From positions 1-34,520 of the forward strand of contig CALRGC010000009.1 in assembly GCA_943357105.1 (NCBI GenBank): a stretch of DNA of 34,520 nt, given 5' to 3'. The notes below the pieces were generated by a model. It was not told where the DNA came from. It worked only from the letters and a program-made list of their open reading frames with translations, and made no database searches. Each line of letters starts with the position of its first letter. The first letter of the stretch is position 1. Positions 1 to 4,521 of the stretch are shown in pieces. This DNA comes from Candidatus Magasanikiibacteriota bacterium. GTDB taxonomy: Bacteria > Patescibacteriota > Patescibacteriia > Magasanikbacterales > GWA2-37-8. A program made the position numbers and the translations under genes.

Positions 1-996
1 CACTACTTCGTTGAGATCAGAGGCAGATAGTTTGGCGTCTTCGAGCGCTTTCTTTACTGGACCCAAAGTTTTTTCCACCAATCCACCTACGAGCTCTTCC
101 AATTTAGAACGAGTCAATTTCAAAACTAAATGTTTTGGACCATTGGCATCGGAAGTAATAAACGGTTGGTTGATTTCACTTTCTTGTGCGGTAGATAATT
201 CGATCTTGGCTTTTTCCGCGGCTTCTTTAATGCGCTGCAAAGACAACGGATCTTTACCCAAATCAATACCTTGATCTTTTTTAAATTCATCCAAAATCCA
301 TTGAATAATTACTTGATCAAAATCATCACCACCAAGATGGGTATCACCATTGGTAGAAAGCACCTGCACATTGTCCGGAGCGACTTCAAGGATAGATACA
401 TCAAATGTACCACCACCCAAATCATACACCACAATTTTTTGTTCGGTCTTTTTATCAAAACCATAGGCCAAAGCGGCGGCAGTTGGTTCGTTGATAATAC
501 GCAAAACTTTTAGACCAGCAATTTCACCGGCGTCTTTGGTTGCTTGGCGCTGAGAGTCGTCAAAATAAGCGGGCACGGTGATTACCGCTTCAGTCACTTT
601 TTCTCCCAAGCGTTCTTCCGCGTCCGCTTTCATTTTACCCAAAATCATCGCAGAAATTTCTTGCGGAGAATATTCTTTGCCTTGCATCTGCACTTTCACA
701 CCTTCACCAGATTTTACAATCTTATAAGGCATGAGTTTGAGATCGCGTTGCACTTCTTCGTCATTCCAATTGCGACCGATCAGACGCTTGATGGAATACA
801 AAGTGTTTTCCGGATTGGTCACCGCCTGACGTTTGGCCAACTGACCAACTAAGCGTTCACCGGATTTGCTCACAGCCACAATAGACGGTGTGGTGCGTGC
901 GCCTTCTTTATTTTCGAGAACTTTTGGCTGACCACCTTCGATGATGGACATACAGCTATTGGTTGTACCCAAGTCGATTCCTAATACTTTTGACAT
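1..996 (-). CDS. dnaK: Molecular chaperone DnaK (Hsp70), N-terminal part, truncated by window start
   Basis: Minus strand from 996 translates as [15 protein letters not shown]..., the Hsp70 phosphate-1 motif; the listed + ORFs here are antisense to it. Confidence 0.95.
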
Positions 997-2307: not shown

Positions 2308-2739
2308 TTATTTTTTCTTAGTAATTTTAATCTCCACTTTTTTTGGTTCAGAAAGTTGCACTTTTGGACAACTGATTTTTAATATACCATCTTCAAAACT
2401 AGCTTCTACTTTATCCTCGGCTACCGCTGTGGGCAAAGCAATCTGACGAAAAAACGATCCACTGCGAACCTCTTTGCGATAATAATTTTTTTCTTCGATT
2501 TCGTGCTCTTTGTGATTTTCACCTTGCAAAGTGAGCACACCTTTTTCCACGCTCACCTTTACATCTTCCGGACTAAATCCGGCCAGCGGTGTTTCTACCA
2601 CTACGGATTTATCGGTTTCATACATATCTACCGCGGGTGTAAACGCTTTCATACTGGAATTTACCGCCGGCAAACGATTAAACGCTTCATCTACTTGATC
2701 AAATGGGTCCCACATCGGGCTCCAACGAATTAGAGTCAT
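2308..2739 (-). CDS. Hsp20 / alpha-crystallin small heat shock protein
   Basis: VVVETPLAGFSPEDVKVSVEKGVLTLQGE...GSFFRQIALPTAV...ASFEDGILKISCPK; alpha-crystallin domain. Confidence 0.93.
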   Translation of the reverse strand: MTLIRWSPMWDPFDQVDEAFNRLPAVNSSMKAFTPAVDMYETDKSVVVETPLAGFSPEDVKVSVEKGVLTLQGENHKEHEIEEKNYYRKEVRSGSFFRQIALPTAVAEDKVEASFEDGILKISCPKVQLSEPKKVEIKITKKK

Positions 2740-2762: not shown

Positions 2763-3635
2763 TTATTTTGAAATTATTACTTTGGCGGCTTTGATTACTT
2801 TTCCTCCCATTTTATAGCCACCGATTAATTCTTTTATTACCATACCGGGCTCTTGGCCTTCCACTTCTTCTTCGCCCATACTCTCATGCATATTGGGGTC
2901 AAATTTTTCACCAACGGTTTTTATCTCTTCAATGCCGTGTGATTTTATCACATCGCCAAATTGCTTCATGATAAATCCGATACCGTCAATCCAATTTTTC
3001 ATTTGCTTATGCTCTTCGTTATCGGCTTGCAGAATTGGATGATGAAAGAAAGCAGATTTGAAATTGTCATATACCGGAATAAAATCTTCCAAAATTTGTG
3101 CCTTACTCATCTGCGCCCATTCACCGCGGCGCTCGTTGGTTTCTTTTTGTAAATTTTTGTAATCCGCTAGAGCGCGTTGCCAATCTTTTTTGTATTCTTC
3201 TGATTTATCCAAATTTTGTTTTTTAGACAGAAAAAATTCTTCAATGTGTTTTTTAACTGTTGGTTTTACATCTTGTCTAATCAACAATTCTCCTGGAGAT
3301 AATACAATAAAATCTGTGGCTTCATCAGGCTGTAAAACCGGCTTTTGCTCATCATCTACCATTTCCGCTCTATAGCGTAAAGCTATATAATGAATACCTT
3401 CTTCTGTTCTAATAGACTCACTAGTTGTCACATATTCCAAATTTTTAATATCCAATCCAGTTTCTTCTTTTACTTCTCTTAATACTGTATCACTAATTTT
3501 TTCTCCATATTCAATATGCCCACCCGGAGCCGTAAACATATCGCCTTCTTTCGGAGATTTAATTAAAAATAATTTTCCGTCTTTATCAAAGATATATACT
3601 CTAACAACAATGTGAATTTTTTGTTCGTCAGTCAT
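2763..3635 (-). CDS. grpE: NUDIX hydrolase domain fused to GrpE nucleotide exchange factor
   Basis: N-terminal Nudix box GHIEYGEKISDTVLREVKEETGL; C-terminal GrpE-like RALADYKNLQKETNERR...FDPNMHESMGEEEVEGQEPGMVIKELIGGYKMGGKVIKAAKVIISK in one ORF. Confidence 0.88.
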   Translation of the reverse strand: MTDEQKIHIVVRVYIFDKDGKLFLIKSPKEGDMFTAPGGHIEYGEKISDTVLREVKEETGLDIKNLEYVTTSESIRTEEGIHYIALRYRAEMVDDEQKPVLQPDEATDFIVLSPGELLIRQDVKPTVKKHIEEFFLSKKQNLDKSEEYKKDWQRALADYKNLQKETNERRGEWAQMSKAQILEDFIPVYDNFKSAFFHHPILQADNEEHKQMKNWIDGIGFIMKQFGDVIKSHGIEEIKTVGEKFDPNMHESMGEEEVEGQEPGMVIKELIGGYKMGGKVIKAAKVIISK

Positions 3636-3636
3636 A

Positions 3637-4317
3637 TTATTTGTTCAAAATTTCTTTAACTAATTGTAAAAGCGAATAGTTGCGTTTGTAATCGGTACGA
3701 GTCGGAGCAAGCAAAGCCAACAAACTGTCGCCAAATCTAAAAGACGCGACCGATAACATATTTCCAAATGGATGCTCCGTACCAACAAAAAACTGAATAT
3801 CATCAGAAACAAGATCATAAAAACCAGGAATGCAATCTTCACAACGATCAAAAACTTGTGACACGTCTCCGACTATCCCCAGCTCCACAAATTCCGGTTT
3901 GGAAAATAGATTGGACAGACCGGTGTAGTAAATAGAATTTGGAGAAAATGCGAATATCACGGTTTCTTGAGTGATCGCCGCAAGCACTTTGGCTAGATTT
4001 TTTTGAGCTTGAATTTTATCTTCAAAACCAAAAAAACTTTCCAGAGCGTCCGACTCTTTTTTGCCAACTTTCAATTTTTCCCAATCGGTTTTGCCAAGAT
4101 AATATTTATATCCTGATTCAGTCGGGATACGACCGGCCGAAGTGTGAGGATGAGTCAAATAGCCCATCTCTTCTAGATCACGCAATTCATTGCGCACCGT
4201 GGCTTCACTCCAATCCAAACCAGCCTCAGATACCAAAAACTTCGACCCAATTGGCTGGGCCGTAGCGATGTATTTTTCAATAACTAGGGTCAAAAGTTGC
4301 TCTTGACGAGTATTCAT
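3637..4317 (-). CDS. hrcA: Heat-inducible transcription repressor HrcA (short form)
   Basis: N-terminal winged HTH: QLLTLVIEKYIATAQPIGSKFL...SEATVRNELRDLEEMGYLTHPHTSAGRIPTESGYKYYL; 226 aa; preceded by CIRCE. Confidence 0.88.
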   Translation of the reverse strand: MNTRQEQLLTLVIEKYIATAQPIGSKFLVSEAGLDWSEATVRNELRDLEEMGYLTHPHTSAGRIPTESGYKYYLGKTDWEKLKVGKKESDALESFFGFEDKIQAQKNLAKVLAAITQETVIFAFSPNSIYYTGLSNLFSKPEFVELGIVGDVSQVFDRCEDCIPGFYDLVSDDIQFFVGTEHPFGNMLSVASFRFGDSLLALLAPTRTDYKRNYSLLQLVKEILNK

Positions 4318-4323
4318 AAAATA

Positions 4324-4350
4324 TTAGCACTCTAACCTTATGAGTGATAA
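4324..4350 (-). promoter_or_regulatory. CIRCE operator (HrcA binding site)
   Basis: TTAGCACTC-N9-GAGTGATAA, one mismatch from consensus TTAGCACTC-N9-GAGTGCTAA, directly upstream of hrcA. Confidence 0.93.
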
Positions 4351-4394: not shown

Positions 4395-4518
4395 AAAAAT
4401 AAAGAAAAAGGCGCAAATAGTGACTTTTTCGCTTTCCTCGGCCGCGAGGCCTCAGGGAATCGCCTGCGGGCTCATAACCCGCTCAAAAGTAACTATTTGC
4501 GCCTTTTTCTTTATTTTT
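4395..4518. repeat. Large inverted repeat with two apical GC-rich hairpins (possible family 3)
   Basis: 27-bp arms AAAAATAAAGAAAAAGGCGCAAATAGT / ACTATTTGCGCCTTTTTCTTTATTTTT; interior hairpins GGCC-GCGA-GGCC and GCGGG-CTCATAA-CCCGC. Confidence 0.85.
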
Positions 4519-4521
4519 TGT

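Follow-up and report, generated by a model that had tools for sequence, protein, structure and literature searches.

Few co-chaperones are as highly conserved as GrpE. In the window (the whole 34,520-nucleotide stretch of DNA analysed here, from a Candidatus Magasanikiibacteriota bacterium), one open reading frame appears to encode a Nudix hydrolase and GrpE together, and the locus thus raises the question of whether this fusion is real and, if so, what a nucleotide hydrolase might be doing on the exchange factor of DnaK.

Results

A Nudix domain and GrpE share one reading frame in a CIRCE-controlled operon

The features of the locus are as follows.

2763..3635, minus strand: Nudix-GrpE fusion gene, 290 aa, one unbroken open reading frame with no internal stop
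3264..3614, minus strand: Nudix hydrolase domain, aa 8-124 (PF00293, AlphaFold2, Foldseek)
3453..3521, minus strand: Nudix box, G39 to L61, all catalytic positions present
3207..3263, minus strand: junction, aa 125-143, from the last Nudix helix toward the long GrpE helix
2766..3218, minus strand: GrpE domain with coiled coil, helix bundle and C-terminal beta domain (PF01025)
4324..4350, plus strand: CIRCE operator TTAGCACTC-N9-GAGTGATAA, in front of hrcA
3637..4317, minus strand: hrcA, 226 aa (short), first gene of the operon; HrcA C-terminal domain PF01628, 2.8e-07
2308..2739, minus strand: hsp20 (alpha-crystallin; PF00011, 2.9e-21), 23 bases 3' of the fusion gene
1..996, minus strand: N-terminal part of dnaK, cut by the contig end; the remainder is the start of contig C26

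An earlier note on this DNA had claimed that a complete Nudix box and a GrpE domain lie in a single frame, directly after hrcA in a CIRCE-controlled operon, and each of these claims held up. Pfam places NUDIX (PF00293) at aa 8-124 (E = 4.5e-19; 69.2 bits against a curated cut-off of 21.1) and GrpE (PF01025) at aa 140-290 (E = 2.4e-35; 122.1 bits against 25.8), both far above threshold, with the GrpE match spanning profile positions 25-165 of 165, from the coiled coil to the C-terminus. The box, G39-x5-E45-x7-R53-E54-V-K-E57-E58-T-G-L, is complete, and comparison with 22 GrpEs from several phyla showed that the residues invariant in this family are kept, among them G242, E243, F245, D246, P247, H250 and G273. 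The operator deviates by one mismatch from TTAGCACTC-N9-GAGTGCTAA (chance expectation 0.01), and a CIRCE-like site with no more than four mismatches was present at 75 of the 78 grpE loci scanned, window included. The start of the fusion is well fixed, because its ATG sits one base past the hrcA stop codon. The earlier note had further named an independent grpE elsewhere as evidence that would speak against the fusion; a GrpE search of the whole genome (925 kb, completeness 98.8%) found no second copy. Beside the fused domain, this genome, a metagenome-assembled genome (MAG) in 34 contigs with MAGs of Candidatus Magasanikbacteria as its closest named relatives, carries four further Nudix genes.

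Two other ways of producing these domains were considered and rejected. Expression of a separate GrpE from an internal start would have to use one of only two candidates, a TTG at codon 142, which lacks a recognisable ribosome-binding site, or an ATG at codon 176, which already falls within the coiled coil. Read-through from an adjoining nudix gene is at odds with the relatives, fused or unfused, in nearly all of which the upstream gene, where readable, is hrcA.

Downstream of the fusion, the same strand carries hsp20, a NYN-domain gene, a gene for a putative membrane protein and dnaK, the last 1.8 kb away. As the C-terminal part of dnaK begins contig C26, the window contig and C26 probably adjoin. 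Between hrcA and an SPFH gene lies a 125-bp palindromic element (window 4395-4519) with inverted-repeat arms of about 25-30 bases; it looks like a dispersed repeat, since about eight other genome sites match it at 73-87%.

The fusion recurs across the class

A search of the order with the GrpE model returned 77 GrpE loci above the cut-off, 20 of which, the window's included, encode the Nudix-GrpE fusion. Reading of the proteins showed that every one of the 20 loci with an open frame of at least 290 aa has a Nudix domain before GrpE. Ten more fusions were found in other families of the class, nine with a profile built on the fused Nudix sequences of alignment A1 (G393, G236, G254, G335, G402, G310, G420, G207 and G324) and one by the GrpE search (G244), such that the architecture recurs in at least ten families; Pfam confirmation of the fused set was obtained on three examples. 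Outside the class, 380 sampled genomes of the phylum were searched with a strict threshold, which weaker relatives could escape, and no fusion was detected. The domain search across relatives suggested by the earlier note thus returned 29 other genes, which argues against an assembly join. An assembly or frameshift artefact, for which the fragmentation of the MAG into 34 contigs could be invoked, is dismissed as having next to no chance of being correct, given the 29 further genes of the same architecture in other genomes, the 92-95% identity of the flanking hrcA and GrpE to those of sister species G003, and the single open frame without internal stop.

Other unusual architectures were encountered along the way. 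The GrpE of G236 (L192:978-2018) is part of a triple fusion, DUF1653-Nudix-GrpE. G431 (L130:2489-3361) encodes a GrpE-Hsp20 fusion (GrpE, aa 5-158; Hsp20, aa 188-287), which looks like a fusion of neighbours, since hsp20 directly follows grpE in the window. Finally, G389 (L189:3-1853) and G371 (L190) each carry an ORF of 617-625 aa combining adenine phosphoribosyltransferase, Nudix and S-methyl-5'-thioadenosine phosphorylase domains (APRT-Nudix-MTAP), a predicted three-domain adenine-salvage protein whose Nudix domain is of the same subfamily as those fused to GrpE.

The Nudix domain looks catalytically competent

The Nudix box of the window, GGHIEYGEKISDTVLREVKEETGL, fits the consensus Gx5Ex7REUxEExGU. 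Across the 21 fused Nudix domains of alignment A1 the G, E, R and second-last E of the box are invariant, and the REx2EE core is complete in 29 of the 30 fusions, including the nine further ones of the class; the 20 fused domains compared with that of the window are just 20-39% identical to it. The one broken box, that of G047 (L082), reads RQIKEK in place of REx2EE next to an intact GrpE, and its decay indicates that a dead Nudix domain has been tolerated at least once. In the one close pair analysed (G075/G072), dN/dS was 0.115 for the Nudix domain and 0.083 for GrpE.

An AlphaFold2 model of aa 1-140 yielded a Nudix fold with a mean pLDDT of 93.5. Separate Nudix and GrpE alignments were used for folding, and in the full-length model, where few Nudix rows were aligned, the Nudix half is poor, with a pLDDT of 34-69 by blocks. 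In this full-length model the last helix of the Nudix domain and the long helix of GrpE (aa 125-197) are continuous, which is tentative because pLDDT is only ~50-60 in aa 121-140. The best Foldseek match was 4kyx_A (E = 4.5e-11). The nearest solved relatives in PDB profile and fold searches, namely 4kyx from Rickettsia felis (annotated as an ADP-ribose pyrophosphatase MutT), NUDT15 and plant NUDX1, differ in their substrates, and an Aquifex Ap4A hydrolase was also among the structural matches. None of the NCBIfam equivalog cut-offs, among them those for the ADP-ribose pyrophosphatase, Ap4A hydrolase and MutT 8-oxo-dGTPase subfamilies, was reached by the window domain, the NudC, YtkD and MutT models scoring 28-38 bits against cut-offs of 98-158. 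Judged from its residues and predicted fold, the Nudix domain of the fusion looks like an active hydrolase.

The Nudix domain is patchily distributed among near-identical GrpEs

The Nudix domain is missing from 57 of the 77 GrpE loci of the order, including those of three species of the window's own genus (G003, G004 and G006), and is thus dispensable. These three unfused proteins begin with MTDEQ and continue with an acidic tail bearing an FFxRKCKNCE motif before entering the same coiled coil as the window protein, which itself reads MTDEQ, then the Nudix domain, then FFLSKKQNLDKSEEYKKDW. Identity between the window and G003 is 95% for hrcA and 92% for GrpE. By parsimony on these sequences, the window cassette is one gain or two losses within the genus. 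Likewise, the GrpEs of G079 (fused) and G078 (unfused) are 97% identical. On a tree built from 142 columns of the GrpE core, the fused and unfused states need 16 changes, at least 13 of them forced by well-supported branches, a number close to the 18.5 obtained with shuffled labels.

Immediately ahead of the GrpE coiled coil, 9 of the 21 fused and 23 of the 57 unfused proteins also carry a CxxC motif, often FFxRKCxxC (for example at L138, L142 and L082); in the GrpE N-termini of this order it is possibly a metal or redox site.

Exchange of a cassette or repeated fusion

On the Nudix tree, fused and unfused domains are separated by three changes versus 24 for shuffled labels. A single clade of all fused Nudix domains was not rejected (AU p = 0.345), whereas a clade restricted to those of the order was (AU p = 0.0006); the Nudix domains of G014, G015 and G036 fall among fusions from other families of the class, whereas the GrpE cores of these three proteins remain with the order's own GrpEs. 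The same discordance is apparent in pairwise comparisons: G047 and G048, of one genus, are 83% identical in hrcA and 94% in GrpE but 40% in Nudix, and G036 and G014 are 61% identical in Nudix but 52% in GrpE and 45% in hrcA. By sequence, the fused Nudix domains are a narrow subfamily. Because the Nudix domain disagrees with its flanks, it behaves as an exchangeable cassette between the MTDEQ start and the GrpE coiled coil; the trees, built from short alignments of about 125-140 columns, suggest that it has entered and left the grpE gene many times over, and our interpretation is that the Nudix segment is exchanged within the gene.

Repeated independent fusion of close Nudix relatives to grpE, rather than exchange of one cassette, would also generate a patchy distribution, and is consistent with the existence of three clades of fused Nudix domains that have unfused relatives close by. 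Yet the fused domains of different families group together, and the best unfused Nudix of the order scored 84 bits compared to 142-178 for the fused ones, with a model that was itself built from fused domains. On balance, independent origin strikes us as rather unlikely, if well worth keeping in mind. Ancient polymorphism followed by many losses may also explain the distribution.

Viral contigs were considered as carriers of the cassette and rejected, since the Nudix sequences that matched there were all distant relatives, at 26-50% across short segments. Base composition in the window differs between the Nudix segment (GC 33.1%, GC3 19.2%) and GrpE (GC 38.8%, GC3 37.7%), a difference that goes both ways among relatives and is only suggestive.

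Discussion

We favour, with a probability of about 0.55, the reading that the fusion causes a putatively active Nudix hydrolase to be made and positioned together with the exchange factor of DnaK under heat-shock control, and that this hydrolase is an exchangeable cassette. The product would be a two-enzyme heat-shock protein. Its C-terminal part would serve as the only GrpE of the cell, dimerising through the coiled coil and exchanging the ADP of DnaK for ATP, and its N-terminal part as a Nudix pyrophosphohydrolase carried where, in E. coli GrpE, a tail reaches the substrate-binding domain of DnaK. The dose of hydrolase would be fixed at 1:1 with GrpE, presumably with two copies per dimer if GrpE dimerises in the usual manner. 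Candidate substrates, of a class that is likewise predicted, are oxidised or otherwise damaged NTPs, stress dinucleotides such as Ap4A, or ADP-ribose. Since the fusion brings CIRCE/HrcA control and a 1:1 dose, nucleotide sanitation would rise with heat shock, near DnaK, the simplest benefit being that a nucleotide-cleaning enzyme is co-induced and co-localised with GrpE; housekeeping in general could be served by the four other Nudix genes of the genome, with no fusion needed. The cassette would be gained, lost and exchanged between lineages while leaving GrpE undisturbed. The architecture, the single GrpE copy, the CIRCE operon, the recurrence and patchiness of the fusion, the conflict between Nudix and GrpE trees and the conservation of catalytic residues are seen in the data; from these we infer the two activities, the dimeric display, the substrate class and the benefit of co-induction.

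Compared to known GrpE proteins (E. coli 1dkg, entry 4ani), the window protein shares the coiled coil, helix bundle and beta domain, the hrcA-grpE order under CIRCE and the single copy, and differs in that a folded Nudix domain, placed after the first five residues, replaces the disordered N-terminal tail. With MutT, NUDT15, plant NUDX1 and 4kyx it shares the Nudix box, the fold and, following the box, a conserved H; unlike in these solved relatives, to which it is ~18-27% identical in the fold search, its Nudix domain is covalently joined to GrpE. Nudix domains fused to other proteins are found in nicotinamide-nucleotide adenylyltransferase/Nudix and in APRT-Nudix-MTAP, the latter (G389 and G371) with a Nudix of the same subfamily as in the GrpE fusions; the partners there are enzymes of nucleotide metabolism, whereas the partner in the window is a co-chaperone.

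The earlier note had suggested that hydrolysis of stress-damaged nucleotides or ADP derivatives might be coupled to the chaperone cycle. A more intimate relationship of this kind between the two domains may be envisaged, in which the Nudix domain clears a nucleotide that interferes with DnaK (Ap4A or another adenine derivative) at the site of exchange, or senses it and adjusts GrpE. In E. coli, heat shock raises Ap4A, which cross-links to DnaK and is degraded by Nudix enzymes (PMC10148737), while the coiled coil of GrpE, into which the helix leaving the Nudix domain is predicted to continue, unfolds as a thermosensor (PMC12915176). The Aquifex Ap4A hydrolase among the structural matches, and the same Nudix subfamily inside APRT-Nudix-MTAP of two genomes, a second link to adenine nucleotides, point the same way. 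Ap4A hydrolases are nonetheless not the nearest relatives by sequence or by fold, the Nudix domain is easily lost, and the continuity of the helix comes with low confidence at the junction. Direct coupling is thus, in our judgement, an unlikely explanation, albeit one to be taken seriously. A broader and slightly less probable conjecture is that the GrpE N-terminus in this class of Patescibacteria is a swappable sensor or enzyme slot, with Nudix cassettes passing between lineages; the chaperone cycle would then be tuned by a small nucleotide, such as Ap4A or another adenine dinucleotide made under stress, that is bound or destroyed next to DnaK.

Alternatively, the Nudix domain could be a tolerated passenger that persists and spreads with little effect on fitness, having been able to land in the N-terminal tail of GrpE because that tail is disordered and permissive. 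The 16 changes on the GrpE tree, the near-identical GrpEs with and without Nudix (G078/G079) and the one decayed box (G047) are all in line with such an origin. Against it, 29 of the 30 diverged copies retain their catalytic residues, dN/dS is 0.12 for the Nudix domain (one close pair), and the same narrow Nudix subfamily is found each time, across at least ten families. We hold neutral persistence to be doubtful, and return to co-induction and co-localisation of an exchangeable hydrolase as our preferred reading.

The earlier note had regarded the domain combination as non-standard, in agreement with which the portions of the open-licence literature covered, on GrpE/Nudix fusion and on Magasanikbacteria GrpE, contained no description of a Nudix-GrpE architecture; as this coverage extends to open-licence papers, the fusion may already be on record elsewhere without comment. 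The two domain families are known; what is new is their combination, its recurrence and its behaviour as a cassette. Going beyond what the earlier note envisaged, and perhaps of most importance, is the recurrence across a class of Patescibacteria of a Nudix part that behaves as an exchangeable cassette.

The disordered N-terminal tails of E. coli GrpE bind the substrate-binding domain of DnaK and help release the client (PMC12915176), and this action of the tail is itself a recent finding. The natural replacement of this tail by an intact Nudix domain, in a cell's sole GrpE and repeatedly across lineages, would provide a direct handle on the old question of whether Ap4A and other stress nucleotides act on DnaK, and the locus is also a clear example of apparent domain exchange within a core gene of bacteria with minimal genomes. 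Altogether, the fusion hints at an unrecognised link of nucleotide clean-up with the chaperone machine.
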